From contig NZ_JWJD01000001.1 in assembly GCF_000820505.1 (NCBI RefSeq), positions 521,923-585,922 on the forward strand: 64,000 bases of DNA, given 5' to 3'. The first letter of the stretch is position 1. Each line of letters starts with the position of its first letter. The position numbers and the translations under genes are program-made. This document shows positions 19,029 through 42,565 of the stretch, one piece after another. This DNA comes from Geoalkalibacter ferrihydriticus DSM 17813. Its GTDB lineage: Bacteria > Desulfobacterota > Desulfuromonadia > Desulfuromonadales > Geoalkalibacteraceae. The notes under the pieces were generated by a model, which was given only the letters and a program-made list of their open reading frames with translations, made no database searches and had not been told where the DNA came from.

Positions 19029-20774
19029 TCAGGGACTGACGGCATTGACCCAGCTCGGCAATTCGCCGATCACCACATCAAAGGCGGGAATGACCAGCAA
19101 GTAGGTCAGCACCACCGTGAGCATGATGCCGATGATGTTGAGGCCGAAGCCGCTTCTGGCCATCTGTGGTATCGTCACATAGCCCGAGCCAAACACGATG
19201 GCATTGGGCGGCGTTGCGACCGGCAGCATGAAGGCACAGCTCGCCGCCACCGCCGCCGGCACCACCAGCAGCAGGGGATTCTGTCCCAGACCAATGGCCA
19301 CCGCCGAGAGGATCGGCATGACCATGGCCGCGGTGGCGGTATTGGAGGTCAACTCGGTAAGAAAGATAATCAGAGTCGCAACGGCGATTATCAGGATGAG
19401 AATCGGGGCATTTTCCAACAGGCTGACCTGGCCGCCGATCCATTCGGCCAGCTTGGTATCTTTAAAGCCGTCCGCCAAGGCAAGGCCACCGCCGAACAGG
19501 ATCAGCACGCCCCAGGGCATCTTGCTCGCCCAGTGCCAGTCCATGACGAACTGATTTTTACGCAGGTTGATGGGGATTAGAAACAGCACCAGCGCTCCGA
19601 TCATGGCAATGGTGGCATCGGTAATGAACTTGGGCTCGGGAAAAATCACGCTGATCTGTTTCTGGAATATCCAGGCGAAGGCGGTCAGTCCGAACACCAA
19701 AGAGGTCCAGCGCTCACCGGTATTCATCTTGCCCATCTTGCGCAGTTCGTTGCTGATCAAATCCTTTCCGCCCGGCACTTTCTTGAGCTTGAGGGGATTG
19801 GCAACGCGCGTCAACCACAGCCAGCACAGGGGCAGCATGACCAGCACCAGAGGCACACCTACCGACATCCACTTGGCGAAGGTGATTTCATAACCGTAGG
19901 TCTTGTTCAAATAGCCCGCCAGCACCGTATTGGGCGGCGTTCCGATGAGGGTGGCGATGCCGCCGATGGAGGCGGCATAGGCGATGCCCAGCATCAGATT
20001 GAGGCCGAATGCGAACTTGTCCGGCGAAAAATCGATTTCCTTATCCAGACCTTCTTTTTTGCCTTCGGCCACCACATGGGCGATGATCGCCAGTCCGATG
20101 GGCATCATCATGACTGTGGTTGCGGTATTGGAGACGAAGGCGGAAAGCGCAGCGGTGGCAACCATGAAACCCAGAATCAGGCGGCTCGGGGAAAAGCCCA
20201 TGACCTTGACGATGTTCATGGCGATGCGCCGGTGCAGGTTCCAGCGCTGCATGGACAGGGCGATGATGAATCCGCCCATGAACAGAAAGATCAGGTGGTT
20301 GGCATAGGGCGCAGTCGCTTTGCCGGTGGCCATGATGCCCATCCACGGAAACAGGGCGATGGGCAGCAGACTGGTGGCGGGAATGGGGATTGACTCGCAC
20401 ATCCACCAGGTCGCCATGAGCAGGGCGATAGCCGCCATTTTCTGGGCAGCGGGCTCCATGCCCGCAGGTGCGGGAAGCAACAGCATCAGAGCAAAGAGAA
20501 TCGGACCAAGGAAAAGTCCCAACATCTGGCGGCGACTGTATTCGCGCGGCTCCCCTTCCTCGATGCCATCGGGCCCCGAAGAAAGGCGGTTGATGTGTTC
20601 GGCGGGCGCTTCTTCCATCTCGTCAGCAAGGTCGACATCACGCTCCTGGCGACCCTTGCTGAAATCCAAATACTTGCGTTTCAGTTCGCGGCGGGCCGCC
20701 GCCGGAGTGAAGACAAAAAGCCGTTTTGTTTCATCGTGCATTACCCACATTTGACGCCACAGTGCGGTCAACAT
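19029..20774 (-). CDS. SLC13/DASS-family sodium:carboxylate (or sulfate) symporter
   Basis: 581 residues, about 12 membrane helices from residue 83 on. Inner-membrane uptake of di- or tricarboxylates with Na+ is the family role. Both inverted-repeat ion-binding motifs are visible: SNTATTVMMMPI (about residue 215) and TSNTATAAMVMPIL (about 475), each with the S-N-T core, and TLIGTPPNTVLAGYL. The first 80 residues are hydrophilic and charged (RELKRKYLDFSKGRQERDVDLADEMEE), an unusual cytoplasmic extension. A sigma-54-like promoter lies upstream at 20850-20865. Substrate is inferred; it fits carboxylate feeding of a TCA cycle with fumC nearby. Confidence 0.88.
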   Translation of the reverse strand: MLTALWRQMWVMHDETKRLFVFTPAAARRELKRKYLDFSKGRQERDVDLADEMEEAPAEHINRLSSGPDGIEEGEPREYSRRQMLGLFLGPILFALMLLLPAPAGMEPAAQKMAAIALLMATWWMCESIPIPATSLLPIALFPWMGIMATGKATAPYANHLIFLFMGGFIIALSMQRWNLHRRIAMNIVKVMGFSPSRLILGFMVATAALSAFVSNTATTVMMMPIGLAIIAHVVAEGKKEGLDKEIDFSPDKFAFGLNLMLGIAYAASIGGIATLIGTPPNTVLAGYLNKTYGYEITFAKWMSVGVPLVLVMLPLCWLWLTRVANPLKLKKVPGGKDLISNELRKMGKMNTGERWTSLVFGLTAFAWIFQKQISVIFPEPKFITDATIAMIGALVLFLIPINLRKNQFVMDWHWASKMPWGVLILFGGGLALADGFKDTKLAEWIGGQVSLLENAPILILIIAVATLIIFLTELTSNTATAAMVMPILSAVAIGLGQNPLLLVVPAAVAASCAFMLPVATPPNAIVFGSGYVTIPQMARSGFGLNIIGIMLTVVLTYLLVIPAFDVVIGELPSWVNAVSP

Positions 20775-21166
20775 ACATTCCTATCTCCTTTTGCTCTAGT
20801 TTGAGCGGGGGCGCAGCCCGCCGCGGAAATGACACTGCATTCTATTTTGAGCAACCGCAATGCCAATCTAGGAAAAAGGAGAAAAGACCTGTCCTCTTGA
20901 AATTCAAAACTTCGCGTTTACGCCATGTTGGCACGCACAGCACGGCAGAAACCATGAAATAGTGTTTAATTCTAACCACTTTCCATACTTGCAAGGCCTT
21001 CCGTAAATGGCTGAAAACGGCCCTGCCATGAGAGATTAAAAAACGTCTCAAGGCTCGTATTTTCAAGACAATTTACATATTGGTGAAAATTGGCCAAAGG
21101 CGGGAATTGGTCAGCAGCGACTCGATCTGGCAACAATAATTTGGAATAGGCTATAGATCCCGGCAT
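20775..21166. other. Intergenic region between ubiD and the SLC13 transporter
   Basis: About 390 relatively AT-rich bases without a supported gene. It holds the sigma-54-like element at 20850-20865 facing the transporter. Nothing else convincing was seen. Confidence 0.5.
20850..20865 (-). promoter_or_regulatory. Candidate sigma-54 (RpoN) promoter for the SLC13 transporter
   Basis: On the minus strand TGGCATTGCGGTTGCT matches the -24/-12 consensus TGGCACGNNNNTTGCW except at two positions, with GG and GC exactly spaced. The -12 end is about 76 bases before the transporter start. Confidence 0.55.
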
Positions 21167-22519
21167 TTAGCCACCCAGACCATACTCCCGCCATCGCCGC
21201 TCTATGTGTGCAGCAATCCCCGGAGCAGGGCGCACTTGCGGCCAATTTTTCTTGCAGGTGGCATCAATCGCCAGACGACCTGTACATTCCAGAATATCGC
21301 GACCCGGCAGCGCTTGGTTGATCGCTCGCCAGAGAAGGCGTGATGAATTGGAGAGCTCTTCTTCGGCATCAACAAAGAGCAAAAGACGTGAACGACGCAA
21401 AGGACCTTTGCGCCACAACTCGCGTGCCAGGTCCAGCGGCGGCGGTGCTGCGGACTGCAGTGCGACAATGACGCAACCATGGAACACGCCCTCGTTCAGA
21501 TAGCGCAGACCGCTGATACTCGGATAATCGTGGCGCAACAAAGCAAGCACCAAAGGTTCTCCCGATCTCACCAGATGAATATTTTCCATGGGCGGCGGCC
21601 CCACCACTGTCGCAGGAAAGATGGCATCCTCGGCACGGTAAAGCCCCTGAACATGGAAAACCGGGGCCGGCGCGGCAGGCTGGTAAAAGCCGGTGTGGTT
21701 ACCAAAAGGCCCTTCGTTTGCCAAAATTCCTGAAGAAATTTCTCCCTCGATCACAATTTCCGCATCCGCTGCCACCGGTAGGCCGGTCAGTGGTCCTGCG
21801 GCCAATCTGGGTGCTTCCCCGCGCACAAGGCTCAGAAAAGCCGCCTCATCAATGGATCCCGGCAACGGCAGCACGGCCGCGGCCAGCAAACCTGGATCTC
21901 CACCCAGCGTCACCGCCAAAGGCAAGGATAGCCCGCGCCGGGCATGTTCTTTAACCAGCTGTGCCCCTTGGGAACCAGGCAGAAAATGGATGGCGGCGCT
22001 GGTCCTGTCCAAAATCTGCATCCGATAAACGCCCCAGTTCGTCCGACCGCTGTCAGGGTCGCGCATACTGACCAGGGCCAGTGTCAAATACCGGCCGCCA
22101 TCGCCCGGCCAGGCCTGAAGCGCCGGCAGACTGCGCAAATCGGGGGGAACCTGGGGCAATACCAAGGATTCCAGAATCGCCTCGGTCCCTGGAGAAACCC
22201 GCACCAGGTTGAGCAAGCAGGCCTCCATGTCATCATGTCGGGCGCTTTGAAGACGCGAGGATAAACCACCAGCCATTTCCTGAGGCGCGACCTTTCCCCA
22301 GGCCAGAGCAGCGCGCCGCTCGGAGCCATAAAGGTTGGTAGCCACCGGTAAAGCAGAGCCATTGACGCGCCTGAACAAAAGCCCCTGGCCGCCCCCAGGC
22401 TGCTTGCATACCCGGTCGGTAATGGCCGCGATTTCCAACAGCGGATCAACCTGGACCCTTACCTCGTGCAGATCGTCTTCACCCTTCAATTGGCGTATAA
22501 AATTCGGCAAAGATCGCAT
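21167..22519 (-). CDS. ubiD: UbiD-family prenyl-FMN-dependent decarboxylase
   Basis: 450 residues. UbiD-type decarboxylase using the cofactor made by UbiX. The opening LPNFIRQLKGEDDLHEVRVQVDPLLEIAAITDRV, VATNLYGSERRAALAWG, the central IVIEGEISSGILANEGPFGNHTGFY (with the conserved E and G-P-F-G-x-x-T-G-x-Y loop), and VVGPPPMENIHL are family landmarks. It probably decarboxylates the naphthoate intermediate in futalosine menaquinone synthesis (MqnL-like), given mqnC/mqnE/ubiX/ubiA within 6 kb; an aromatic-acid substrate elsewhere in metabolism is possible. Confidence 0.88.
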   Translation of the reverse strand: MRSLPNFIRQLKGEDDLHEVRVQVDPLLEIAAITDRVCKQPGGGQGLLFRRVNGSALPVATNLYGSERRAALAWGKVAPQEMAGGLSSRLQSARHDDMEACLLNLVRVSPGTEAILESLVLPQVPPDLRSLPALQAWPGDGGRYLTLALVSMRDPDSGRTNWGVYRMQILDRTSAAIHFLPGSQGAQLVKEHARRGLSLPLAVTLGGDPGLLAAAVLPLPGSIDEAAFLSLVRGEAPRLAAGPLTGLPVAADAEIVIEGEISSGILANEGPFGNHTGFYQPAAPAPVFHVQGLYRAEDAIFPATVVGPPPMENIHLVRSGEPLVLALLRHDYPSISGLRYLNEGVFHGCVIVALQSAAPPPLDLARELWRKGPLRRSRLLLFVDAEEELSNSSRLLWRAINQALPGRDILECTGRLAIDATCKKNWPQVRPAPGIAAHIERRWREYGLGG

Positions 22520-22667: not shown

Positions 22668-24128
22668 TTAGAAAATTGCCAACCGGGCCAAATCCATGAA
22701 CGGACCGGGAACAATCCCCAGCAGCAGAACCCCGACGATGGCAATAGCGATAGAGACCATGGCCCCGACCGGCATTTTCACCCAGGCGAAATCCTCTACC
22801 GGATCGCGGAAGTACATAACGACCATGACCCGCAGATAATAGTAGAGAGAAACGGCCGAGGCCAGAATGCCCAGAACCGCTAACCAGATGTAGCCTTCTT
22901 TGATGGCACCGGCGAAGATATAAAATTTCCCGGCAAATCCCGCCGTCGGGGGTAGACCCATCAGGGAGAAGAGGAAGATGGCCATGGCCACTGCAAGCAC
23001 GGGGCGACGATAGCCGAATCCGGCGAAACCGTCCAGAGTGAGGTTGTCCTCCCCTTTTTTGCCCGCCAACACCAGGACGGCAAAGGCCCCCAGGTTCATG
23101 AAGGTATAGGCCAGCATGTAAAAGAGAATTCCGGAAAGCCCGACTTCATTGAAAGCCACCAGACCAACCAGCGCGTAGCCGGCATGCGCCACGGAGGAAT
23201 AAGCCAGCATCCGCTTGAGATTGGTCTGTGAGATGGCGATGACGTTGCCGACCACCATGGTCAGAACCGCCAGCACCCACAAAAGACTGGTCCACTGATC
23301 AGCCATCCCGCCCAAACCGACAACAAACACGCGCATGAAGGCGGCAAAGGCTGCTGCCTTGGGTCCGGCACTCATAAAAGCGGTGATCGGGGTGGGAGCG
23401 CCGTGATAAACATCAGGTGTCCACATATGGAAGGGAACAGCGGCGATTTTAAACAAAAAGCCCGAACTCATCAAAACCATGCCGGCGACCATCAGGGGGT
23501 TGCCGAGCAGTCCGCCATCGGTCTGCAGGGCCTGGGCGATTCCAGCCAGATTGGTCGTCCCCGTAGCACCGTACACCAAAGCCATGCCGTAGAGCAGAAA
23601 GCAGGTGGAAAAGGCGCCGAGCAGGAAATACTTCAGGCCTGCCTCGTTGGAGCGCAGTTGCCCACGGAACATTCCTGCCAGCACATAGAGACTGACGGAG
23701 AGCACCTCGAGACCCAGGAAGATGGTCATCAGATCCGTCCCCGAGGCCATCCACATGGCGCCTGCGGTGGTAAACAGAATCAGCGGATAATACTCGCCGA
23801 TGGCGTAGCCTTCGCGCTTGAGATAGTCCTCGGACATGAGGATCGTCAAACCGGCTGCCAGCAGGAAAATAATGTTGAAAAAGGTCGCAAACTTATCCAA
23901 CTGAACCGCGCCGTAAAACCCGGTCTGGGGCTCACCCCATCCCGCCAGGGAAACCAGCCCGGTTACCACCAAGGCGGCAAGACTGAGCCAGGCAATGGGC
24001 GCGGTCTTGCCTTTAGGCAGAAAGACCGTGATGAGCAGGATCGCCATGCCGAAGCAGCATAGGACCACGGACGGCATGATGGCCGCCATGTTGACATTCT
24101 GGATTGCATCTTGCACCAGGTTTTCCAT
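22668..24128 (-). CDS. nuoN: NADH-quinone oxidoreductase subunit N
   Basis: 486 residues, about 14 membrane helices; an antiporter-like proton-pumping subunit of complex I. Conserved elements are TIFLGLEVLSVSLYVLAGM (key Glu in helix 5), FKIAAVPFHMWTPDVYHGAPTPITAFMSAGPKAAAFAAF (helix 7/8 Lys and His), and LKRMLAYSSVAHAGYALVG. Last gene of the operon, 44 bases after nuoM, followed by a strong terminator. Confidence 0.96.
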   Translation of the reverse strand: MENLVQDAIQNVNMAAIMPSVVLCCFGMAILLITVFLPKGKTAPIAWLSLAALVVTGLVSLAGWGEPQTGFYGAVQLDKFATFFNIIFLLAAGLTILMSEDYLKREGYAIGEYYPLILFTTAGAMWMASGTDLMTIFLGLEVLSVSLYVLAGMFRGQLRSNEAGLKYFLLGAFSTCFLLYGMALVYGATGTTNLAGIAQALQTDGGLLGNPLMVAGMVLMSSGFLFKIAAVPFHMWTPDVYHGAPTPITAFMSAGPKAAAFAAFMRVFVVGLGGMADQWTSLLWVLAVLTMVVGNVIAISQTNLKRMLAYSSVAHAGYALVGLVAFNEVGLSGILFYMLAYTFMNLGAFAVLVLAGKKGEDNLTLDGFAGFGYRRPVLAVAMAIFLFSLMGLPPTAGFAGKFYIFAGAIKEGYIWLAVLGILASAVSLYYYLRVMVVMYFRDPVEDFAWVKMPVGAMVSIAIAIVGVLLLGIVPGPFMDLARLAIF

Positions 24129-24172
24129 TGAAACGCTCCTCCAGATGCGGTGTTATGCCAAATCGATCTAAA

Positions 24173-25735
24173 TTACTTCAGCAACGCGTCGGTGTGGGCC
24201 GCGGTTTGAACAATTTCAACCTGCGCAACCTGATTGTTCTTGATCTGATCAATCATGTTTTCCAGAGCCGGGTTCATCTTCTCAAAGAAGGTGTTGGGAT
24301 AGAGCCCGATCCAGAAGACAAACAGTAGCAGAGGCATCATAAGAGCAATTTCGCGTGCATTGAGATCTTTGATCTTCTCGTTGGCGGGATTCTTGATTTC
24401 ACCAAACATTACGCGCTGGAACATCCAGAGCATATAAACGGCTGCGAAAATGACGCCGGTGGTGGCGATGACCGCGAACCAGCGCAGATCGCTTTCAAAG
24501 GCGCCCAACAGGATGAGGAACTCACCGACGAATCCGTTAGTGCCGGGCAGTCCGATGGACGAGAAGGTCACGATCATGAAGATCGTGGCAAAAATCGGCA
24601 TCTGCTTGGCCAACCCGCCGAAATCGGCAATCAGACGGGTATGGCGGCGCTCGTATATGAAGCCGACGATGAGAAACAGCGCTCCGGTGGAAATGCCGTG
24701 ATTGATCATCTGGATCATGCCGCCGGAAAGACCTTGGATGTTAAGGGCGAAAAGACCGAGCATAACAAACCCGAGATGGGAGACCGAAGAATAGGCGACC
24801 AGTTTCTTTACGTCGTCCTGCATCATCGCGACCAAGGCACCATAGATGATACCGATAACCGCCAGTACCGACAGGAAAGGAATAAACTTGAGAGTGGCGT
24901 CGGGAAACAGCGGCATGGCGAAACGCAGATAACCGTAGGTGCCCATCTTAAGCAGGATGGCGGCCAGAATGACTGAGCCGGCCGTCGGGGCCTCGGTATG
25001 GGCATCGGGCAACCAGGTGTGCACGGGGAACATGGGCACCTTGATGGCAAAGCTGAAAGCAAAGGCCAAAAACAACCAGATCTGCAGATCAAGGGGAATG
25101 TCGAGAAGGTAGAAATGCAGGATACTGAAGCCGCTGTCGAAATCAATCCCTGCCTGCATTGAGAAGAAATACACGTAGATGATCGCAACCAGCATCAGCA
25201 GAGAGCCGACGGCAGTAAAGATAAAGAACTTTACGGCGGCGTAAATCCTGCGGCTCCCACCCCAGATACCGATCATGAAATACATGGGAATAAGCATCAA
25301 TTCCCAGAAAATGTAAAACAGGAACAGGTCGAGGGAAATGAAAGCGCCGAGCATTGCCGTTTCGAGCAGCAACATCAGAGCCATGAAACCCTTGACATTC
25401 TTATCTACGGCTTTCCAGGTCGAGAGCACCGTGATCGGCATAATGAAGGTGGTCAACAGAACCAACCATAGGCTGATGCCGTCAACGCCGACATTGTAGT
25501 TCATCTGGAAGAAGTCACCGACGCTGATCCAGCGGGCGAATTCGGTATAGTGGAAAGCGGCCGAGGTTTTGAAGACGTCATCAAAGGCCAAAGGCAGACT
25601 GATCAAAAAGGTGATCACTGTCACGACCAGAGTGAAGATCTTCAGAAGCCCATGATTATCCCTGGGGATGAAAAGCAGCAGCAGCATCCCGAGAATCGGG
25701 AAAAACGTCATCAGGCTTAAAAGGTGGTCGGTCAT
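24173..25735 (-). CDS. nuoM: NADH-quinone oxidoreductase subunit M
   Basis: 520 residues, about 14 membrane helices; antiporter-like pump of complex I. Key Glu in LFYIFWELMLIPMYFMIGIWG, Lys in FAIKVPMFPVHTWLPDAHTEAPTAGSVILAAILLKMGTYG, and DVKKLVAYSSVSHLGFVMLG in the second repeat. Lies 44 bases after nuoL. Confidence 0.97.
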   Translation of the reverse strand: MTDHLLSLMTFFPILGMLLLLFIPRDNHGLLKIFTLVVTVITFLISLPLAFDDVFKTSAAFHYTEFARWISVGDFFQMNYNVGVDGISLWLVLLTTFIMPITVLSTWKAVDKNVKGFMALMLLLETAMLGAFISLDLFLFYIFWELMLIPMYFMIGIWGGSRRIYAAVKFFIFTAVGSLLMLVAIIYVYFFSMQAGIDFDSGFSILHFYLLDIPLDLQIWLFLAFAFSFAIKVPMFPVHTWLPDAHTEAPTAGSVILAAILLKMGTYGYLRFAMPLFPDATLKFIPFLSVLAVIGIIYGALVAMMQDDVKKLVAYSSVSHLGFVMLGLFALNIQGLSGGMIQMINHGISTGALFLIVGFIYERRHTRLIADFGGLAKQMPIFATIFMIVTFSSIGLPGTNGFVGEFLILLGAFESDLRWFAVIATTGVIFAAVYMLWMFQRVMFGEIKNPANEKIKDLNAREIALMMPLLLFVFWIGLYPNTFFEKMNPALENMIDQIKNNQVAQVEIVQTAAHTDALLK

Positions 25736-25779
25736 GGAAATCGCTCCTTATCTCAACAATACAAGGGGTTGGCGCTTTT

Positions 25780-27756
<1,977 letters not shown>

Positions 27757-27794
27757 CTCCTCTGTCGATTAGATCGGATCGAATCAGAAATTGA

Positions 27795-28097
27795 TCACCA
27801 TTTCAGCAGGTTGAAATCGTCGACTTCCACGGACTCTTTGTTTCGGAAGAAAGCGATCATCAGGGCGAGTCCCACAGCAGCCTCAGCCGCCGCAACCGAC
27901 ATGATGAAAAGGACGAAGATCTGACCGTCAATGTTTCCTAAAAAGCTCGAAAGAGAGATGAAGGTAAGATTCACGGCATTGAGCATCAACTCAATGCACA
28001 TGAAAATGACGATCGCGTTGCGCCGGGTAAGAACCCCGTACGTCCCCAGAGCAAAGAGAATGCCGCTGAGCACAAGATAATGATAAACGGTAAGCAT
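27795..28097 (-). CDS. nuoK: NADH-quinone oxidoreductase subunit K
   Basis: 100 residues, three membrane helices. Membrane-arm subunit of complex I; conserved Glu residues lie in [16 protein letters not shown] (helix 2) and [18 protein letters not shown] (helix 3). Between nuoJ and nuoL. Confidence 0.96.
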
Positions 28098-28120
28098 GGT
28101 CGGCTCCTGTCAGTTCCCGT

Positions 28121-28624
28121 CTAAACGTCTTTTTTTGCCAGCACGAGGGCGCCCACGATCGCAATCAGAAGGAGTATCCCGGTGATCTGGAAGGGCAACA
28201 TAAATTCAGTGAACAATTTCAAGCCCATAATTTGCATGTGACCTTCTTCAAGCACCCGCTGCTTAGTGATGTCGCCCTGGACTCCGGCGACCGTGCCACG
28301 GTTCACAAACATCATGACCTGCAGCATGACGATGGCGGAGACAATGGCACCACCGATGACCCCATGGCGAAATTTTTTCATCATCTCGGGCCCGAGGTTG
28401 AGCAGCATTATGACGAACAAAATCAAGACCATGATGGCTCCGGCATAGACCAGAACCTGAACGGCGGCCATGAAAGGCGCGTAAAGCATGACATAGAAAA
28501 TGGCCAGGCAGAAGAAGGTCATGACCAGGGATATGCCGCTGTTCACCGGATTTTTGCACATGACCACCGAAAAACCGGAAAGGACCGCGACCATCGCAAC
28601 GAGATAAAAAAATAGTAATTCCAT
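28121..28624 (-). CDS. nuoJ: NADH-quinone oxidoreductase subunit J
   Basis: 167 residues, five membrane helices. Membrane-arm subunit of complex I; the conserved AVQVLVYAGAIMVLILFVIMLLN helix, whose Tyr and Gly belong to the E-channel bend, is present. Between nuoI and nuoK. Confidence 0.95.
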   Translation of the reverse strand: MELLFFYLVAMVAVLSGFSVVMCKNPVNSGISLVMTFFCLAIFYVMLYAPFMAAVQVLVYAGAIMVLILFVIMLLNLGPEMMKKFRHGVIGGAIVSAIVMLQVMMFVNRGTVAGVQGDITKQRVLEEGHMQIMGLKLFTEFMLPFQITGILLLIAIVGALVLAKKDV

Positions 28625-28644
28625 GAGGCTTCGCTCCTTTCCGC

Positions 28645-29040
28645 TTAACGCAGCAGCCGCTCTTTAGTGAATTCGAAGTCGGACCGCCGATAATTAGCCA
28701 ATTCGTACTCCCCTGTCATTTCAAGGGCCTCGACGGGGCAGGCCTCAACGCAGTAGCCGCAAAAGATGCAGCGCAGCATATCTATTGTGTAAACTTTGGG
28801 ATATTTTTCTCCCTTGTCATTCTCCGCGGACTCAACCGTGATGCATTTGGCCGGACAAACCGTAGGACACAGATAGCAGGCCACGCACTTTTCCCGGTCC
28901 TGTGTGGGCACGAGCCGATGCAGTCCGCGATAACGCTCTGAGGGCGTCAACTTCACATGCGGATATTGGACCGTGGTGCTGTGCCCCGGCAGCAGGTGTT
29001 TAAAGGTGATGCTCAAACCTTTGGCAAATTCTTTGAACAT
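28645..29040 (-). CDS. nuoI: NADH-quinone oxidoreductase subunit I
   Basis: 131 residues. Ferredoxin-like subunit that carries clusters N6a and N6b between NuoG and NuoB: CVACYLCPTVCPAKCI and CIFCGYCVEACPVEAL each give four cysteines. The N-terminus KGLSITFKHLLPGHSTTVQYPHVK is typical. Between nuoH and nuoJ. Confidence 0.96.
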   Translation of the reverse strand: MFKEFAKGLSITFKHLLPGHSTTVQYPHVKLTPSERYRGLHRLVPTQDREKCVACYLCPTVCPAKCITVESAENDKGEKYPKVYTIDMLRCIFCGYCVEACPVEALEMTGEYELANYRRSDFEFTKERLLR

Positions 29041-29070: not shown

Positions 29071-30111
29071 TTATTGCATCAGGACGACGACCACGCCGGT
29101 GACGATCACGTTGGCCAGACCCAAGGGAATGAGAACCTTCCAGCCCATAGTCATCAACTGGTCATACCTGACTCGCGGCATGGTGGCACGCAGCCAGATG
29201 GCGAAAAACATGAATGCCACAATTTTGAGCAGAAGATTGATCGGACCGAAGAAGGGGCCGGACCAACCACCGAGGAAAAGAGTCGCGGCAATGGCAGCGA
29301 TAACCACCATGTTGGCGTATTCCGCCATGAAGAACAGAGCGTACTTCATGGAAGAGTATTCCGTACAGAAGCCTGACACCAACTCCGATTCGGCCTCAGG
29401 AAGATCGAAGGGAGTACGATTTATTTCAATCAAGGACGTGAGAATAAACAGGCCGAAAGCGAGCGGCTGGGTAAAAATGTACCAGTTCGGCAAAAAGGTG
29501 ATAACTCCCCACAGCGGCTCCATCTGCAGGGCCACGATCTCGCGCAGGCTCAGGGTTTCCGAAAGCATGAAGACCGCAACAATGGAGAGACCAGCGGCCA
29601 GCTCGAAGGAAATCATTTGCGCGGTGGAACGAATGCCGCCAAGAAGGGAGTATTTACTATTCGAAGCCCAACCGGCCAACACGATCCCATAAGCGCCAAG
29701 TCCGGCCATTGCGAGAACGTACAGGACCCCGACATTGAGGTCGGTGATCTGCAGAGGGACGATGTAGCCGCCGATCTCGATGTCACGTCCGAAAGGCACC
29801 ACCGCGAAGGTGATAAAAGCGGGCACCAGAAGCATCATGGGCGCAAGGACAAAGGTAAACTTGGCTGCCTTGGCCGGAATAATGTCTTCTTTGAAAAAGA
29901 GCTTAAGTCCATCGGCGATCGGCTGCAAAAGGCCATGCCACCCCGTTTCCATGGGTCCAAGGCGGGTCTGCATATGGCCGATGACCTTGCGCTCGAGCCA
30001 GGTCGCATAGGCAACGATCAGGATAACGACCACAAAGACGACCACGATCTTCACGAGCATCGTGGAAACGAACAAGGGCCAGTTGTTGGAGAGACTCACT
30101 ACAGGCGTCAT
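29071..30111 (-). CDS. nuoH: NADH-quinone oxidoreductase subunit H
   Basis: 346 residues, eight membrane helices. Forms the quinone chamber and first proton channel of complex I: WLERKVIGHMQTRLGPMETGWHGLLQPIADGLKLFFKEDI and the charged loop LTSLIEINRTPFDLPEAESELVSGFCTEYSSMKYALFF are both present. It follows the TPR gene rather than nuoG directly, a departure from the usual order. Confidence 0.97.
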   Translation of the reverse strand: MTPVVSLSNNWPLFVSTMLVKIVVVFVVVILIVAYATWLERKVIGHMQTRLGPMETGWHGLLQPIADGLKLFFKEDIIPAKAAKFTFVLAPMMLLVPAFITFAVVPFGRDIEIGGYIVPLQITDLNVGVLYVLAMAGLGAYGIVLAGWASNSKYSLLGGIRSTAQMISFELAAGLSIVAVFMLSETLSLREIVALQMEPLWGVITFLPNWYIFTQPLAFGLFILTSLIEINRTPFDLPEAESELVSGFCTEYSSMKYALFFMAEYANMVVIAAIAATLFLGGWSGPFFGPINLLLKIVAFMFFAIWLRATMPRVRYDQLMTMGWKVLIPLGLANVIVTGVVVVLMQ

Positions 30112-30145: not shown

Positions 30146-31108
30146 TCAAAATCCAGGTTTGTGGGGAGTGGCCATTTCCCCGACGTGCTTGCTGAGATAT
30201 TGCGCCTCACGATGGTTGGGGTTGATCGCGAGTGCCTTTTGGAGGGCCTTGCGCGCTTCGTCGAGAAAATCGAGTTGAATATTGCACTCGGCAATCCGGA
30301 CCCAAGCGTCAGCATCCTTGGGGTTGATCTCCAGAACCTGCCCATAGGCGCTGATCGCCTCTGAGAAATCCCCCATGCGGCGAGATGTTTCGCCGAGCAT
30401 GTAAAAAGCAGGGGCAAAACGGGCGTTGGTTTCCGCGGCCTGGGTGAATTCCTGCCCCGCCTCGGCCAGCAACCCTTCCTTAAAAAAAGCCATCCCCAAT
30501 TCGAAGCGAGCTGCGGTATAGGTGGGACTCAATTCCACCACCCGGCGGAATTGTTGAATCGCCGAAGCGTAATCCCCTTTCTGGGAGTACACCATGCCAA
30601 GCATATATAGCACCCGCGTGTAACTGGGATTGATGCGGGCGGCTTCCTGAAGTGATTTTTCAGCCTGAACCAGATCGGTGTTGCGCAGATATGACAGGCC
30701 GAGTCGGTAATGGGTTTCGGCACTGTTGGGATTGATTTCCCGCGCCTTTTGGAAATTCTCGATACTCGCATCAAGATCACCCAGTCCGTACTGGGCCATG
30801 CCCATTTTGAAAAAAACCCGGAAAAGGTCCTTCCCGCCCTCCAAAGCCTTGCGAAAGCAACTTACTGCGGCTTCCAGATCGCCCTGGTCGTAAAGAGCAA
30901 GGCCCTTGTAGTAATGAGCTTTTGACGAGGTCGAATCGATTTTCAGAACCTCCTCCCAGCAACTAAGAGCCTCCTCGATCATCCCACGGTGGAAAAGATC
31001 AAGGGCCTTTTGATGGATAAAATCCACGTCGCTGGACAGGTTCGCACCACACTGATCGCAAAACTTGGCCTGGGCCGGTACTGAAGCGCTACACTTGGAA
31101 CATTGCAT
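30146..31108 (-). CDS. Zinc-ribbon TPR-repeat protein inside the nuo operon
   Basis: 320 residues. A zinc ribbon (C3, C6, C17, C20 in CSKC ... FCDQCG) is followed by about seven to eight tetratricopeptide repeats from residue 30 to 310, each with A-HYYKGLAL / A-FELGMAF-type helices and P at the repeat end (INPNSAETHYRLGLSYL, LSPTYTAARFELGMAFF, INPKDADAWVRIAECNI). No signal peptide, so cytoplasmic. It begins 14 bases after the nuoG stop and ends 35 bases before nuoH, in the operon direction. TPR proteins are interaction scaffolds; a role in complex I assembly or regulation is inference. It is not a recognised complex I subunit. Confidence 0.9.
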   Translation of the reverse strand: MQCSKCSASVPAQAKFCDQCGANLSSDVDFIHQKALDLFHRGMIEEALSCWEEVLKIDSTSSKAHYYKGLALYDQGDLEAAVSCFRKALEGGKDLFRVFFKMGMAQYGLGDLDASIENFQKAREINPNSAETHYRLGLSYLRNTDLVQAEKSLQEAARINPSYTRVLYMLGMVYSQKGDYASAIQQFRRVVELSPTYTAARFELGMAFFKEGLLAEAGQEFTQAAETNARFAPAFYMLGETSRRMGDFSEAISAYGQVLEINPKDADAWVRIAECNIQLDFLDEARKALQKALAINPNHREAQYLSKHVGEMATPHKPGF

Positions 31109-31121: not shown

Positions 31122-33614
31122 CTAGACGCTTAACTTGCTGACTTCAACAGCCACGGCTGCTTCACCGTGGTAAATTCGATTAACTCCGGCGCCGGCAAAA
31201 TGGTAAGGAACGAACACCACCCCGCGCTGCAAACGCTTGCCGACCTTTGCCTTGAGTCGCAGTTCTTCGCCGTTACCTTTGAGGGATACGGTTTCGTTAT
31301 CTTTAATGCCCAGCTCAGCCGCATCCTCATAAGCGAACTCGACATAGCTTTCGGGCATGGCGGCCAGAGGGCCCTGGGCACGCGCGGAGAGGGTGCCGCT
31401 ATGGTAAAGAGCGCTTCCCGTAATCATCTGGAAACGAGCGGCTAGGGGCTCGCCCCCTTTAACCGCCACGAGTTTGCGCCTCGCAGGCGCCAGGCGCTCT
31501 CCGCCCCAGACCACCCCTTGCGGGCCGATGCCATTAAAATCGATGCCTTTATACTCAGGTACAGTCGCCGTGATTTCGGCAAAAACCGCATGGGGTCCGG
31601 TGAAGGAAAGGGGATCTCCCATCCGCCCTGCCAGCATGGAGAAGATCGCCAGATCGCTCCGTGCCTCGCCGGGACTTTTAACACCAGAGTGCAAACGCTG
31701 AATGCGGCGCTCCGCGTTAGTGAAGGTTCCCTCTTTTTCGGCAAAGGAAATCGCCGGCAGGATCACATCGGCTTCACGGGCGGTATCGGTGAGGAACAGA
31801 TCCTGTACCACCAGAAAAGGGACCTTTTCAAGGGCGGCCTGGACTTGGTTGCGATCCGGATAAGACGCAAGGGGGTCTTCCCCGATGACATACAGAGCGG
31901 AAAGCTCGCCCCCGGCTGCGGCAGTCAACATCTCCTGCGCACTCATTCCTCCCGCGCGGGGAAGGATATTCTGATCGATGGCGCCCTGGCTGTTGGCTTT
32001 TTCTCCACACAGATACAACCCGCCGTTGTCGCCGTCGAACGCACCGCAAAGAATGGCCAGGTTGGCCGCAGCGATTCCGAGCTCACGCGAATAAGCACTG
32101 TAGGGCAGCCCGTAGGCCAACAGAATCGCCTTGCTTTTCCCTTTGGCAAGATCACGCGCCGCGGCTTCGATGATTTCGGCGGCCACGCCTGTTTTAGTTG
32201 CCACGGCCTTGGGCGAATAGTCTGCCAGGCCGGCGCGCAGTGCTGCGACACCCTCGACCCCGTCGGTACAGGCCAGATCTTCGACCAGCAGCACATGGGC
32301 CATGGCGTTAAGAATGCTGATTTCAGTACCGGGCTTGGTCAGGAGCGTTTTAGTTCCCGCCAGCTTGGTGAACTTGCCTTTCTTGTCGCTGATGACTGAG
32401 AATTTGGCGTTATTGCGCTTGACGGCCTGGTTAACCACCATGCCGAAGACGGGATGGGTTTCGTACAAATCCGACCGTATGGCAAGAATGGCATCGCACT
32501 CCTCAACCTGCGGGAATGTCCCCGTGGAGGCCTTGATGCCGAGAGTTTCAGCCAGACCTTCACTCACCCCCTTGTAGCACTCACCGCCGTTGTGATCGAG
32601 ATGGGGGGTTTTCAGCACCTTGTCGGCAAGGTGGCCGAGAAAATAGTATTCCTCGTTGGTCAATCGCCCGCCACTGAGAATACCCAACCCTTTTTCGCCA
32701 CGCGCTTTTTCAAATCCGGCGACCATGGCTTCCAAGGCTTCGTTCCAGGAAGCGGGCTCCAAACGTCCATGCTTACGCACAAGGGGCTTTTGCAGCCGAT
32801 CATCGGAATTGATAAACGAATAGCCGAAGCGACCACGCACACACAAATTCCCATCATTGACGCCGATTTTGTCATTGAAGCGAATTGTTTCGACCTTATT
32901 GTTGAGTACTCCCAGGGTCAGAGTACAGCCGTTGCCGCAGTAACCGCAGACGGTATCGACCTCCTTGAGCTGCCAGGGACGAGCCTTGAATTTGAAGGGA
33001 CGCGGCAGAAGAGCGCCAACCGGGCACATGGACACACACTGCCCGCAAAACTCGCAGTCAAGCCCACGATCGTAAGCTGTGGCAACCTTGGTATCAAATC
33101 CTCGATTGATAAAGCTATAGGAGCCGTAAGATACGATCTCGTCGCAGACGCGGACACATTTACCGCAGAGTACGCAACGATTCATATTTCTTTCGATAAA
33201 AGGGTTCTGTTCGTCAGTTTCGAGGTTGAACTTCTCATCCTTGAAACGATTTCCGACGACTTCATATTCATACGTCAGGTCTTGCAGGTCGCACTCTCCA
33301 CCCTTGTCACATACCGGACAGTCAACCACATGGTTGACCAGGAGGAATTCAAGAACCGTTTTGCGAACCTTGTCGATGACTGCGGAACCTGTAGTAACAA
33401 CCATACCCTCGGTTACCGGCGTGGTGCAGGCAGGAATCAGACGCCCTTTCATCTGCTCGACCTCGACCAAACAGACGCGGCATGCGCCATAAGGGAGCAG
33501 CTTTTTAGCGTGACACAGAACGGGAATATGAATTCCCACTGTCTCGGCTGCTTCGAGAATGGTGGCAACCTTGCTCACCTTGACCTGTTTTCCGTCTATC
33601 GTCAGTGTAACCAT
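31122..33614 (-). CDS. nuoG: NADH-quinone oxidoreductase subunit G
   Basis: 830 residues. Iron-sulfur wire subunit of the complex I peripheral arm. N-terminal [2Fe-2S] (CHAKKLLPYGACRVC ... C), the His-Cys region HVVDCPVCDKGGECDLQD, two ferredoxin-type clusters (CVLCGKCVRVCDEIV, CEFCGQCVSMCPVGAL), then a further CGYCGNGC motif that would carry cluster N7, followed by the molybdopterin-oxidoreductase-like domain from about residue 220 and a C-terminal dinucleotide-binding-type domain. Between nuoF and the TPR gene. Confidence 0.96.
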   Translation of the reverse strand: MVTLTIDGKQVKVSKVATILEAAETVGIHIPVLCHAKKLLPYGACRVCLVEVEQMKGRLIPACTTPVTEGMVVTTGSAVIDKVRKTVLEFLLVNHVVDCPVCDKGGECDLQDLTYEYEVVGNRFKDEKFNLETDEQNPFIERNMNRCVLCGKCVRVCDEIVSYGSYSFINRGFDTKVATAYDRGLDCEFCGQCVSMCPVGALLPRPFKFKARPWQLKEVDTVCGYCGNGCTLTLGVLNNKVETIRFNDKIGVNDGNLCVRGRFGYSFINSDDRLQKPLVRKHGRLEPASWNEALEAMVAGFEKARGEKGLGILSGGRLTNEEYYFLGHLADKVLKTPHLDHNGGECYKGVSEGLAETLGIKASTGTFPQVEECDAILAIRSDLYETHPVFGMVVNQAVKRNNAKFSVISDKKGKFTKLAGTKTLLTKPGTEISILNAMAHVLLVEDLACTDGVEGVAALRAGLADYSPKAVATKTGVAAEIIEAAARDLAKGKSKAILLAYGLPYSAYSRELGIAAANLAILCGAFDGDNGGLYLCGEKANSQGAIDQNILPRAGGMSAQEMLTAAAGGELSALYVIGEDPLASYPDRNQVQAALEKVPFLVVQDLFLTDTAREADVILPAISFAEKEGTFTNAERRIQRLHSGVKSPGEARSDLAIFSMLAGRMGDPLSFTGPHAVFAEITATVPEYKGIDFNGIGPQGVVWGGERLAPARRKLVAVKGGEPLAARFQMITGSALYHSGTLSARAQGPLAAMPESYVEFAYEDAAELGIKDNETVSLKGNGEELRLKAKVGKRLQRGVVFVPYHFAGAGVNRIYHGEAAVAVEVSKLSV

Positions 33615-33649: not shown

Positions 33650-35431
33650 CTATTCGATGGCCATGAAGCGGCAGGCATCATAGCAGGACGTGCACTTGGT
33701 GCACTTCTCCTTGTCGATGACGGCGAGCTGTCCCTTTTCCCACCGGACGGCGTCAACAGGACAGATCTTGTAGCACAGGCCACACTTTTTGCAGGCAGCG
33801 TCAACAACTTCAAATTTGAGCAATGCCTTACAGGAATTGGAAGGGCATCGTTGATGATGGATGTGCGCCTCATATTCATGGCGGAAATAACGAATCGTCG
33901 AGAGAACCGGATTGGGTGCCGTCTGCCCGAGCCCGCAGAGAGACGCTTTTTTTATGTCTTGGCACATGTCCTCCAGCAGTTCTATGTCTCCCTCACGCCC
34001 CTTGCCCTCTGTAATACGCTCCAAAATATCAAGCATAATCTTCAGGCCGATGCGACAGGGAACGCACTTTCCGCAGGATTCTGCGCGGGTAAAGTTAAGA
34101 AAAAACCGCGCGATATCCACCATGCAGGTGGTTTCGTCCATAACGACCAGGCCACCGGATCCCATCATCGCCCCGGCCTTGATCAGAGAGTCATAGTCGA
34201 CCTCGGCGTCGATGGCTTCGCTGGGCAAACAACCACCCGAGGGCCCGCCGGCCTGCACTGCCTTGAACTTGCGGTTGTTGAGAATGCCCCCGCAGACATC
34301 ATAGATGACTTCACGCACCGTGATGCCGGCAGGAACCTCGACCAGACCGGTATGCTTGACCTTGCCGGTGAGGGCGAAGATCTTGGTGCCCTTGGTACCC
34401 TCGGTGCCGATGGACGCAAACCAGTCGCCCCCGCGGTAGAAGATATAAGACACGTTGGCGAAGGTTTCGACGTTGTTGATGTTGGTGGGCTTGGTCCAGA
34501 GGCCGCGCACGGCGGGAAACGGCGGGCGCGGGCGCGGCATGCCGCGTTCGCCCTCGATGGAGGCCATCAGCGCGGTCTCCTCGCCGCAGACAAAGGCGCC
34601 GGCGCCGGCTTTGATGCGCAGATCAAAATCGAATCCCAGGCCCAGACAGTCCTTGCCGAGAAAGCCTTTTTCGTAACAGACATCTATAGCCTTCTGCAAA
34701 CGCTTGATGGCCAGAGGATATTCAGCGCGCACATAAACATAGCCGCTCTCGGCGCCGATGGCATAAGAGGCGATCATCATCCCCTCGATCAAACCATAGG
34801 GATCGCCTTCGAGAATGGAGCGGTCCATGAACGCCCCGGGATCGCCCTCGTCCGCGTTGCAGATCAAATACTTGTCTTTGCCGGGAGATGCGGCGCAGAA
34901 ACTCCACTTGACCCCCGTCGGAAAGCCCCCGCCCCCACGACCGCGCAGGCCGGATTTTTTCACCTCTTCAATGACCTCCTGCGGGGTCATGGTTACGGCT
35001 TTTTTTATGCCGGTAAAACCGTCATGAGCGAGGAACTCCTCAAGGCTCTCGGCATCGATGGTGCCGCAACGGGAAAACACCACCCGCATCTGCTTTTCAA
35101 GAAATTTCTGGTAGTAATTGCCGGCCTTTTTCTTCTCAACGATTTGGCCCTGCAGGATATGCTCTTCGACGAGTTGAGGAACCATTTCAGGCTTGACGAA
35201 GTCATAGGTTACGGCTTCCTGGCCGGGGATGACGATATCGACCAGCACGTCATTGGCGCATAGACCGCGGCAACCGGTCCCCACCAAAGTGCAGCGCTTG
35301 CCGACCTTGGCCTCAACACCGTGCTTTTCAAATTCAGCCCGAAAGGCTTCTTCCACCGGCTTGGCGCCGGCGGCAAGACCACCTGTTCCCTGGCAGATTA
35401 GAACCCTGATTTGCTCTTCGATCGCGGCCAT
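33650..35431 (-). CDS. nuoF: NADH-quinone oxidoreductase subunit F, extended form
   Basis: 593 residues, versus about 440 for classic NuoF. NADH dehydrogenase subunit with FMN. N-terminal thioredoxin-like [2Fe-2S] domain (C13, C47, C54, C58 region), then FMN/NADH motif GRGGGGFPTG (164-173), ESGYVYVRAEYP, an SLBB domain, cluster N3 motif SCGKCVPCRIG, and an added C-terminal two-cluster ferredoxin (CKKCGLCYKICP, CTKCTSCYDAC). This layout resembles HydB/NfnB-type flavoprotein subunits and NuoF of Geobacter relatives. The extra domains could allow additional partners; that is inference. Confidence 0.95.
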   Translation of the reverse strand: MAAIEEQIRVLICQGTGGLAAGAKPVEEAFRAEFEKHGVEAKVGKRCTLVGTGCRGLCANDVLVDIVIPGQEAVTYDFVKPEMVPQLVEEHILQGQIVEKKKAGNYYQKFLEKQMRVVFSRCGTIDAESLEEFLAHDGFTGIKKAVTMTPQEVIEEVKKSGLRGRGGGGFPTGVKWSFCAASPGKDKYLICNADEGDPGAFMDRSILEGDPYGLIEGMMIASYAIGAESGYVYVRAEYPLAIKRLQKAIDVCYEKGFLGKDCLGLGFDFDLRIKAGAGAFVCGEETALMASIEGERGMPRPRPPFPAVRGLWTKPTNINNVETFANVSYIFYRGGDWFASIGTEGTKGTKIFALTGKVKHTGLVEVPAGITVREVIYDVCGGILNNRKFKAVQAGGPSGGCLPSEAIDAEVDYDSLIKAGAMMGSGGLVVMDETTCMVDIARFFLNFTRAESCGKCVPCRIGLKIMLDILERITEGKGREGDIELLEDMCQDIKKASLCGLGQTAPNPVLSTIRYFRHEYEAHIHHQRCPSNSCKALLKFEVVDAACKKCGLCYKICPVDAVRWEKGQLAVIDKEKCTKCTSCYDACRFMAIE

Positions 35432-35484
35432 ATATCAATTCCCCGACGCATTAAATGGGTTGGCTTGAAGGAAACGCTCCGTCC

Positions 35485-35982
35485 TTAATCCATCGCCTGG
35501 TATTTGTGGACGACTTCTTCCATCTTTTTTACCGAGATGCTGCCGTAAGTGTCTTCATTGACCATGATGACCGGGGCCATGCCGCAGGCGCCGATACAGG
35601 CCACGTGCTCAACCGTGAACTTGAGATCTTCCGTGGTCTCCGCGTGCCCGACACCGAGAATCTGACTGAGGGTATCGGCAATACGCCCAGCCCCCTTGAC
35701 GTGACAGGCAGTCCCCATGCACACACGGACAATATATTTGCCGCGTGGCTCGAGGTGAAACTGCGCATAGAAGGTCAGGACCCCGTAAATCTGGCTCGTA
35801 TACACATTGAGACGCTCAGCGATCAAGTGAATGCAGGGCTCGGGCAGATACCCATACTCATCCTGCACTTCCTGCAGAACGGGCATCAGGGCGCCCTTCA
35901 ATGTGAGGTACTTATCGATCACCTTGTTGGCAGGGCCAAGATCAATTTCCTCTTGTGCCACAGGCGCTTCAGCGTTACTCAT
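35485..35982 (-). CDS. nuoE: NADH-quinone oxidoreductase subunit E
   Basis: 165 residues. Thioredoxin-like [2Fe-2S] (N1a) subunit beside NuoF: CMGTACHVKG and CIGACGMAP supply the four cysteines. The N-terminal helix region ALMPVLQEVQDEYGYLPEPCIHLIAERLNV is typical. Between nuoD and nuoF. Confidence 0.96.
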   Translation of the reverse strand: MSNAEAPVAQEEIDLGPANKVIDKYLTLKGALMPVLQEVQDEYGYLPEPCIHLIAERLNVYTSQIYGVLTFYAQFHLEPRGKYIVRVCMGTACHVKGAGRIADTLSQILGVGHAETTEDLKFTVEHVACIGACGMAPVIMVNEDTYGSISVKKMEEVVHKYQAMD

Positions 35983-36011
35983 GGAGAAACCCTTTCTGCG
36001 GTGATGGATAA

Positions 36012-37193
36012 TTAACGGTCGATATCGCCAAGGACGATATCGAGGGTTCCAATAACTGCAACCACATCGGCGATCATCCGTCCCTGAACCATCTGCGGCA
36101 GAGCCTGAAGGTTCATGAAGGAAGGGGGCCGTATCTTCATACGATAAGGGCGACCGGAACCATCGGAAACCAGATAGAAACCCAACTCACCCTTGGGCGC
36201 CTCGATACTCTGATAGATCTCGCCGGCTTCGGGCTTGAAACCCTCGGTGACGATTTTGAAGTGATGGATAAGACCTTCAATGGTTTCTACCACATCCTTC
36301 TTCGGCGGCAAGCAAACTTTGGGCACATCGGCGAGGATCGGACCAGGCTTGAGCTTGTCCAAAGATTGAAGAACGATCTTGCAAGATTCGCGCATTTCGT
36401 CCAGCCGCACCTTGTAACGCGCCCAGGTATCGCATCCCTCGCTCACCGGAACCTTGAAATCATATTGCTCATATCCGCTATAGGGATGGTCGCGACGCAG
36501 ATCCCAATCGACCCCAGACCCGCGCAGACTCGAGCCGGTAATGCCGATATCGAGAGCCGCCTCACCACTGATGACGCCAACCCCGCAGATACGCTTTTGC
36601 CAGATCTTGTTTCCGGTCAACAGGCCTTCATAGGTCTCGAGATGCTCGGGCATCTTCTCGACGAACTCGCGCACTTCCTTCTCGAAGCCATCCGGCAGAT
36701 CCGCCGAGAGCCCGCCAACTCGAAAGTAGTTGGAGGTCATGCGTGCGCCCGAGATCTTCTCGTACAGGTCCATGATGTGCTCACGCTCACGGAAACAGTA
36801 GATGAACACGGTCATGGCACCGATATCCAGCGCGTGACAGGCGAGCCACACCAGATGGCTCTTGATGCGGGTCAACTCGGCAAGCATCACGCGGATGACC
36901 TTGGCGCGCTCAGGGATGACATCGGTGATGCCGAGCAGTTTCTCGACCGCCAGCACATAGCCGAGGTTGTTGGCCATGGGCGCGAGATAGTCGAGTCGGT
37001 CCGTCAGGGGAATGACCTGGTGGTAGGTGCGATATTCGGAGAGCTTTTCCACCCCGCGGTGCAGATAGCCGATATGCGGAGTGGTCTTGACGACGTGTTC
37101 GCCGTCAAGCTCCAGAACGAGCCGCAACACCCCGTGAGTAGAAGGGTGCTGGGGCCCCATATTTATGGTCATGGTTTCGGTTGTCGCTGCCAT
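36012..37193 (-). CDS. nuoD: NADH-quinone oxidoreductase subunit D
   Basis: 393 residues. 49-kDa subunit lining the quinone site: GPQHPSTHGVLRLVLELDGE near the N-terminus, HIGYLHRGVEKLSEYRTYHQVIPLTDRLDYLAPMANNLGYV, and LGDIDR at the C-terminus. Separate from nuoC, unlike the fused NuoCD of enterobacteria. Confidence 0.97.
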   Translation of the reverse strand: MAATTETMTINMGPQHPSTHGVLRLVLELDGEHVVKTTPHIGYLHRGVEKLSEYRTYHQVIPLTDRLDYLAPMANNLGYVLAVEKLLGITDVIPERAKVIRVMLAELTRIKSHLVWLACHALDIGAMTVFIYCFREREHIMDLYEKISGARMTSNYFRVGGLSADLPDGFEKEVREFVEKMPEHLETYEGLLTGNKIWQKRICGVGVISGEAALDIGITGSSLRGSGVDWDLRRDHPYSGYEQYDFKVPVSEGCDTWARYKVRLDEMRESCKIVLQSLDKLKPGPILADVPKVCLPPKKDVVETIEGLIHHFKIVTEGFKPEAGEIYQSIEAPKGELGFYLVSDGSGRPYRMKIRPPSFMNLQALPQMVQGRMIADVVAVIGTLDIVLGDIDR

Positions 37194-37234
37194 GGCGTGC
37201 CTCGTTCCTTTGGGGTTTCTCGATTGGGTTCCCG

Positions 37235-37726
37235 TCAGACTTCCCGACCCTGATAGGACTCGCGATCAGGGCCCTGCAACGGATAGTCCTTACGCAGTGG
37301 GTGGCCGACCCAATCGTCAGTCATGAGGATGCGGCGCAAATCGGGATGGTTATTAAAAGAAATACCCATGAGATCCCAACATTCACGCTCCGGCCAGTTG
37401 GCCGCGCCCCACACGCTGCAGACCGAATCGATGCGCGGATCAGCCTCGGCCACGGGTGCCTTGAGGCGCAGCCGCTGCTTGGCCTTCATGTTGTAGATGT
37501 TGTAAACCACCTGAAAGCGCGGCCCAGCCCCGCCCATGGCGAGGAGATCCACACCGCACAGGTCGGCAAGCATGTTAAAGCCGAGGTCATTCTTACAAAA
37601 GGCACAGATCGCCAGAATGTCCTCTGCCCGCACTGTCAGCGTAACCTCCCCCCGGTACTCCTTAACCTCGAGCACGGAGGACGAAAATTTTCCCTTGAGT
37701 TTTTCTACTGCGGCCTGATCGGTCAT
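37235..37726 (-). CDS. nuoC: NADH-quinone oxidoreductase subunit C
   Basis: 163 residues. 30-kDa subunit of the complex I peripheral arm, with the signature ERECWDLMGISFNNHPDLRRILMTDDWVGHPLRKDYPL near the C-terminus. Separate from nuoD; 48 bases after nuoB. Confidence 0.96.
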   Translation of the reverse strand: MTDQAAVEKLKGKFSSSVLEVKEYRGEVTLTVRAEDILAICAFCKNDLGFNMLADLCGVDLLAMGGAGPRFQVVYNIYNMKAKQRLRLKAPVAEADPRIDSVCSVWGAANWPERECWDLMGISFNNHPDLRRILMTDDWVGHPLRKDYPLQGPDRESYQGREV

Positions 37727-37774
37727 CCTTCTATCCTCATCACAAGGTTTCCGAACCCAAAATTCAGCCAGGAA

Positions 37775-38284
37775 TCAAGCGTCCCTGACAACCTCGCCCA
37801 ACCCGATGGCGGCTCCGAAAGTGTTGCGCTCCTTCATGATCTTTTCCTGAAGCTTTAGCAGACCATAAAGAAGCCCCTCGGGACGGGGAGGACAACCGGG
37901 GATGTAAACATCGACGGGCAGGGCTTCGTCGACACCCTGCACGGTACTGTAGGTATCGAAAACACCGCCGGAACACGCGCAGGCGCCCATGGCAATGACA
38001 TAACGCGGCTCGGGCATCTGGTCGTAAACCGTCTGAATCACCGGCAGCATCTTCTTTGTGACCGTACCCGCAATGACGATCAGATCCGCCTGCCGCGGCG
38101 ATGCGCGAAACAACACGCCGAAACGGTCAAGGTCAAAGCGCGCCGCACCCGTAGCCATCATCTCGATGGCGCAACAGGCAAGGCCGAAGGTCATCGGCCA
38201 AAGAGAACGGGACCGGGACCAGTTGACGACCTTGTCCAGACTGGTGGTGACAAAACTGCTTCCCAGAGGCTGATCTACTCCCAT
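37775..38284 (-). CDS. nuoB: NADH-quinone oxidoreductase subunit B
   Basis: 169 residues. Carries the terminal cluster N2 next to the quinone: tandem cysteines in [14 protein letters not shown], then [18 protein letters not shown] and [17 protein letters not shown]. Its start overlaps the nuoA end by 10 bases. Confidence 0.97.
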
Positions 38285-38637
38285 TCCAGTGCTCCTTTTT
38301 TCCAGTCATAAATGAAGCCGACAATGAGGACGAAGACAAAAACCCCCATGACCGCGGCGCCATAAAGACCCAACTGCTTAAAAACCACCGCCCAGGGGTA
38401 AAGAAAGACCATCTCGAGATCAAACACGATAAAGGCCACCGCCACCAGATAGAACTTGATCGAGACACGCTCCCGCGCAGAACCCACAGGCGGCAAGCCG
38501 CACTCATAGGGAGCAAACTTGACCGGGCTCGGATTGCGCTTCTTCATTCCGATCAAGCCGGAGAAAATCACCGACCCAAGAGCGAAAGCCAGGGCAATCC
38601 CGATAAGGACGAGAATCGGCAGATAAGCGTCAAGCAT
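38275..38637 (-). CDS. nuoA: NADH-quinone oxidoreductase subunit A
   Basis: 120 residues, three membrane helices, first gene of the operon. Membrane subunit near the quinone site: [44 protein letters not shown] is the family core. A GGGAGGAG ribosome site precedes the ATG. A promoter and a 16-bp palindrome lie upstream at 38714-38765. Confidence 0.96.
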
Positions 38638-40351: not shown

Positions 40352-40948
40352 TCAAGCTCGCGAGCGAGCAGATTCTATGCGGTTCATGCCCGCCAGTAAA
40401 AAACCCAGAGTGATAAAGGCGCCCGGCGGCAGAATCATCAGGAGAAAGGGTTGATAGCCTCCACCCAGCAGGGTAACGCCGAGCAGAGTTCCGGCACCGA
40501 ACAGCTCACGCACCGCGCCGAGAATAAACAGAGCCAGGGTAAAGCCCAAACCCATGCCGACACCATCGATCACCGCCGCACGCAGGGGATTTTTCGAGGC
40601 AAAGGCTTCGGCGCGCCCGAGAATCAGGCAGTTGGCCACGATCAGGGGGATGAAAATCCCCAAAGCCTTGTGCAGATCGTACATATAGGCTTCCATGGCC
40701 AGCTGCACCAAGGTAACGAAGGACGCTATCACGACAATGAAGGCCGGAATGCGCACCTTGCCGGGAATCACCTTGCGCAACAACGACACCACGATGTTGG
40801 AGCACAACAGCACAAATGTGGTCGCAAGCCCCATTCCCAGACCGTTTTCCGCACTGGTGGTAACGGCAAGCACCGGACACAGGCCGAGCAGCAGCTTGAA
40901 AACGGGATTTTCACGCCACAGCCCGCGGGTAAAAACGGCCTTCAACAT
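40352..40948 (-). CDS. rnfE: Rnf complex subunit RnfE
   Basis: 198 residues, six membrane helices. Inner-membrane subunit of the Rnf ferredoxin:NAD+ oxidoreductase; [43 protein letters not shown] and [33 protein letters not shown] are characteristic of the RnfA/RnfE/NqrD/NqrE group. The [15 protein letters not shown] start marks RnfE rather than RnfA. Its start overlaps the rnfG stop by one base. Last gene of rnfABCDGE. Confidence 0.95.
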
Positions 40949-42564: not shown

Positions 42565-42565
42565 G

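Follow-up and report, generated by a model that had tools for sequence, protein, structure and literature searches.

Several described systems bear comparison with the TPR protein encoded at 30146..31108 on the minus strand of the window, by which we mean the whole stretch of 64,000 nucleotides analysed here. LapB (YciM) joins TPRs to a rubredoxin-type metal site and serves as an FtsH adaptor, and Hop-type TPR domains carry a carboxylate clamp, K5-N9-N6-K2-R6, spread across three repeats. Like DZR/Zn_Ribbon_1 plus TPR proteins in general, the window protein has an N-terminal Cys4 ribbon and a TPR superhelix; unlike these generic proteins, it represents a distinct family, conserved along the entire protein. 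Among the best 25 of its 52 NCBIfam matches there was no whole-protein equivalog above cut-off, and the sole model to pass was that of the short TPR end-of-group domain (52 versus 32 bits). The best of these 25, the magnetosome TPR scaffold MamA (NF040959), scored 153 bits, below its cut-off of 200, with its best stretch confined to residues 19-143. With LapB/YciM the protein shares TPRs, a metal-binding Cys4 element and, possibly, an adaptor logic. However, it reached 66.1 bits on the corresponding NCBIfam model, for which the cut-off is 363, and its ribbon is N-terminal and begins at residue 3, leaving no space for a preceding membrane anchor. The first solved structures listed were a consensus TPR superhelix (8chy) and the TPR domain of OGT (6eou), with a TMq of 0.81 each; one is a designed protein and the other a domain of a eukaryotic enzyme, and common to all is the repeat fold only. 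In a comparison with the carboxylate clamp, TPR3 has invariant R97 at position 2 and K101, likewise invariant, at position 6, and TPR1 has H32 at position 5, whereas L36 and Y67 stand in the places of N9 and N6.

The gene encodes 320 residues, begins with ATG in an open frame that holds no alternative start further upstream, and has an AGGAG ahead of it. An initial annotation of this DNA had described a four-cysteine ribbon and seven to eight TPRs, and both descriptions hold. The ribbon spans residues 1-24 (31037..31108, minus strand) and contains two CxxC knuckles (C3, C6, C17, C20). The N-terminal fragment passes the Pfam cut-offs for DZR (28.1 against 27.3 bits) and Zn_Ribbon_1 (27.1 against 25), albeit by margins of 1-2 bits; the ribbon of one copy from family f17 (L100) falls just below these cut-offs, and that of L107 lies above the Zn_Ribbon_1 cut-off. 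All four cysteines are invariant in the 39 orthologues with an N-terminus present, and we infer that the ribbon binds zinc. Pfam TPR_2 matches the remainder in seven stretches (183.3 bits, cut-off 27), while an AlphaFold model (39 orthologues, mean pLDDT 94.7) has the ribbon followed by eight TPRs, which start at residues 28, 62, 96 and so on to 266, and then by a cap helix at residues 300-309 (30182..30211, minus strand). The eight repeats occupy residues 28-299 (30212..31027, minus strand) with an exact 34-residue period, their helices running from 28-40 to 282-295.

Conservation of this family, with 40 orthologues and the cysteines invariant in 39, is far above chance. Across 39 orthologues it averages 0.83 in the inner groove, 0.80 in the fold core and 0.62 elsewhere, groove positions being TPR positions 2, 5, 6, 9, 12 and 13 under the numbering that we assume. 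Invariant groove residues include H32, H40, D74, R97, K101, E131, R135, R142, R165, Q176 and E240. Among 14 hand-picked pairs, one of them saturated, the remaining 13 gave dN/dS estimates of 0.042-0.185, with dS above 1 in six of the 13.

The gene stands between nuoG (31122..33614) and nuoH (29071..30111), with nuoA-nuoF at 33650..38637 and nuoI-nuoN at 22668..29040, all on the minus strand, in a collinear nuoA-N operon spanning 38637-22668. Open reading frames and family matches thus bear out its reported placement within a full 14-gene operon. The close, operon-like spacing reported with it also stands, although the distances are 13 nt to nuoG and 34 nt to nuoH, each one fewer than the 14 and 35 bases first given. 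NuoB, C, E, F, I, K, L, M and N each exceed their curated NCBIfam cut-offs, NuoH and NuoD exceed those of Pfam, and NuoA, NuoG and NuoJ have their own NCBIfam model as best match, yet below cut-off (NuoG by 4 bits). Scans for promoters and terminators gave counts at chance level (3 versus 2.6 and 6 versus 5.6, respectively). In the genome itself (3,839,692 bases in 23 contigs) the next best match, at 1.5e-13, is to a generic TPR protein. A second nuoA-N operon is found there on contig 5 (L229:1220-15926), with 14 of 14 subunits matched (approximately 30-54% identity to those of the first), a single long frame for NuoC and NuoD, and no TPR gene.

The surroundings of the operon were also noted. 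An Rnf-type cluster lies at 40352-45381, between hemL (45651-47042) and nuo, with RnfC identified by TIGR01945 and the other genes as putative Rnf components; hemL and rnfC matches recur upstream of nuo in eight of 14 upstream stretches of relatives. Rnf as an obligatory partner was rejected: at 1e-60, RnfC was not matched in four TPR-positive genomes (G003, G021, G022 and G023), and the 93 genomes with a match do not include G109-G111. Downstream of nuoN, genes of the UbiD, UbiA, UbiX, MqnE and MqnC families (14983-22519) place futalosine-type menaquinone synthesis next to complex I, the UbiD-family gene (21167..22519, minus strand) passing the Pfam UbiD cut-off.

Orthologues, defined by hits at 2.1e-63 or better (the next match being at 4.7e-23), were found in 40 of the 136 genomes of the order Desulfuromonadales, including another of the same genus (G042). 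No comparable protein was found outside the order in a 395-genome sample of the phylum, where the best match (3.2e-38, 32% identity) covers residues 44-265 without the ribbon. A phage origin was considered and dismissed, the matches being generic TPR matches only, in eight records and at no more than 29% identity among the best five of eight. The initial annotation had proposed to check the position of homologues across genomes, and they are not scattered without regard to nuo: 28 of the 40 are flanked by nuoG and nuoH on their own strand, and the remaining 12 all belong to family f17. Both neighbours are seen in 27 of the 28; in the last (G123) the contig begins 120 bases before the TPR gene, yet retains the final NuoG residues. 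Outside f17, then, every orthologue found in the order occupies this one position, and the link to nuo is genuine. In the literature searched, which covered few subscription journals, we found no earlier description of a nuo operon containing a TPR gene. A scan of the genome contigs returned four loci, one being a generic TPR match and another a piece of 24 residues at the end of a contig. One Desulfuromonadaceae contig breaks off within another copy of the gene (L068:6001-6078); it has no nuo match within 6 kb upstream, so that its arrangement is probably of the f17 type.

In 73 genomes a high-identity NuoG and NuoH share one contig and strand; the gene is present at 27 of these junctions, which measure 1013-1055 nt, and absent from 46. 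All but one of the gene-less junctions span 48-108 nt, the other (601 nt, G077) deriving from a broken NuoG match, and no obvious remnant of the gene was seen in the ten stretches inspected by eye. About half of the 46 genomes belong to families that may never have held it. A further 24 gene-less genomes (G027-G040, G048-G060) have a NuoH at 70-77% identity and no high-identity NuoG, and perhaps possess a complex I without the usual NADH module.

On a tree of NuoG-M that retained 71 of the 74 nuo-bearing rows, presence of the gene requires six changes, as against a mean of 22.3 in shuffled data, and none of 500 shuffles was as low; this argues that the gene is old and mostly vertically inherited. 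Among the 43 gene-less rows, 24 comprise families f8 and f14, where it may never have been present, and 19 are interspersed among gene-bearing lineages. The simplest reading of the tree would be one early entry into the nuo operon and several later losses with the operon retained, a reading that depends on the root, and the roots are midpoints. The NuoG-M columns do not track absence of the gene. At least three of five loser lineages differ in 5 columns, compared with a control mean of 10.0 (maximum 32), and at least four of five differ in 1, compared with 1.25, where the control took TPR-positive groups as pseudo-losers in 60 draws and G025 and the f8/f14 genomes were left out. The nuo genes and rpoB of G025 (L151, L226) place that assembly in different families; its rows are 42% and 31% filled, and it may be a mixed assembly, or its placement may be distorted by the short rows.

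Family f17 presents the converse case. Twelve of its 14 genomes carry the TPR gene, the two without it (G119 and G121) being 86% and 67% complete, and NuoG and NuoH of the window type are absent from all 12, with no nuo genes found in the flanking stretches examined. The f17 protein is under purifying selection (dN/dS 0.059 for G110/G111), and its groove residues are invariant as in the nuo-linked members. Downstream of the gene lies a UbiD-family gene in 12 of 12, preceded in eight by two intervening hydantoinase-family genes; a pcnB-like gene lies upstream in ten, and UbiA-, UbiX- and MqnE/MqnC-like genes follow downstream in two. The UbiD-family gene of the window is 41.6% identical to the L100 copy, which likewise passes the Pfam cut-off. 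This neighbourhood fits the idea that nuo disappeared on either side of the TPR gene, which was retained, and a move of the gene could also explain it. In a TPR tree without the partial G117 copy, f17 forms one clade (99/99) adjoining f3 with weak support (91/29), and in an rpoB-rpoC tree, which drew on 58 of the 101 rpoB-matched genomes, it again forms one clade, placed within lineages that carry the nuo-linked gene, with support for this nesting limited (84). The nesting suggests that nuo linkage is more likely ancestral than derived; that f17 is one clade means that retention without nuo counts as a single event.

How far f17 separates the protein from complex I varies among its members. 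Nine of the 12 have NuoH and NuoD homologues, so that a complex I role is excluded only by the other three (G109, G110 and G111), in which no PF00146 (NuoH) or PF00346 (NuoD) match was found. These are 100%, 89% and 99% complete, respectively, and rpoB was matched in each, absences here being read against the fact that rpoB itself went unmatched at E 1e-100 in 35 of the 136 genomes and in 11 of the 84 good ones. Another member (G113), presumably Pelobacter carbinolicus, has a second complete nuo operon (L228) with 14 subunits matched and no TPR gene. One NADH dehydrogenase I of Pelobacter carbinolicus is described in a 2010 paper as lost, all fourteen genes with it, and a second as kept (PMC2923632), and the available text of a later genome paper on this organism contains no mention of NADH dehydrogenase, nuo or TPR (PMC3543383).

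The C-terminus differs between the two groups. Residues 314-320 (30149..30169, minus strand) form a TPHKPGF tail that is predicted to be disordered, with AlphaFold pLDDT below 50 at residues 315-320. TPHKPG stands at or near the C-terminus in 24 of the 28 nuo-linked members and in none of the 12 others, all f17; of the exceptions, G090 has TPHKSG, and G093, G094 and G123 are without the motif. The tail codons differ at synonymous sites, which indicates that the conserved thing is the peptide, and the motif pattern has a single occurrence in its own genome. The tail may serve as an additional docking element, whose partner would perhaps be complex I or one of its assembly intermediates. As f17 is one clade, absence of the tail without nuo is again a single event, and the correlation of tail with nuo rests on few events.

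Any explanation must accommodate what is established, namely the gene, its predicted fold, its conservation, its operon position and its pattern of absence and retention. With moderate confidence we favour a cytoplasmic peptide-binding adaptor with a core role independent of complex I, probably co-expressed with that complex and perhaps docked to it by the tail. Such a protein would be a soluble scaffold: an N-terminal zinc ribbon would cap a superhelix of eight TPRs, and the concave groove of the superhelix, mostly basic, would bind a peptide or protein terminus. Its core job would not need complex I, since the protein is kept where no complex I was found. The gene is probably co-transcribed with nuo in most lineages, which would supply the adaptor in proportion to complex I, and the disordered tail may dock it, perhaps to the complex or to assembly intermediates. 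Its action might be of a co-chaperone or quality-control type on respiratory membrane enzymes. More tentatively, the adaptor may be two-faced, the groove serving an older client everywhere and the tail tying it to complex I where nuo is present; the tail would then have decayed after complex I was lost, and the core stayed.

A rather unlikely alternative is a function unrelated to complex I altogether, in which the nuo position would be a convenient means of co-expression with energy metabolism and the tail would have no connection to the complex. Absences of the gene without matching change in nuo, its retention without nuo, and the three nuo-linked members that lack the tail are all in keeping with this. 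However, a merely convenient position might drift, yet all 28 orthologues outside f17 sit at one place, and the tail tracks nuo linkage, though over few independent events.

The initial annotation had envisaged an assembly factor or accessory subunit of complex I. Its operon link survives, but the dedicated role probably does not, and a secondary, non-essential role at the complex is possible. We consider it improbable that the groove helps to bring the NuoA-G and NuoH-N sides together while the complex is being assembled, as the position of the gene between two blocks of nuo genes would suggest, even though that position and its uniform junction lengths, together with a tail confined to nuo-linked members, speak for such a role. 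Against it, the gene does not occur only together with complex I, as f17 and its three genomes lacking NuoH and NuoD matches attest; nor, on the genomic test afforded by the 46 of 73 junctions without it, does the complex I of close relatives need it; and the five loser lineages show fewer changed NuoG-M columns than the control mean. A scaffold for the enzymes of futalosine-type menaquinone biosynthesis, which the Ubi- and Mqn-family genes beyond nuoN and the UbiD-family gene following the TPR gene in f17 might suggest, is very improbable, for a UbiD-like stretch also lies downstream of nuoN in genomes without the TPR gene (L118, L127, L148) and its adjacency in f17 could result simply from loss of nuoH-N.

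A gene inside a conserved respiratory operon that is kept where the operon is gone constitutes a natural experiment on operon logic, and a warning against inferring function from operon position alone. Should the adaptor indeed be two-faced, its operon-mates would set its supply. The TPHKPGF motif and the few invariant groove residues provide testable handles for finding its client.
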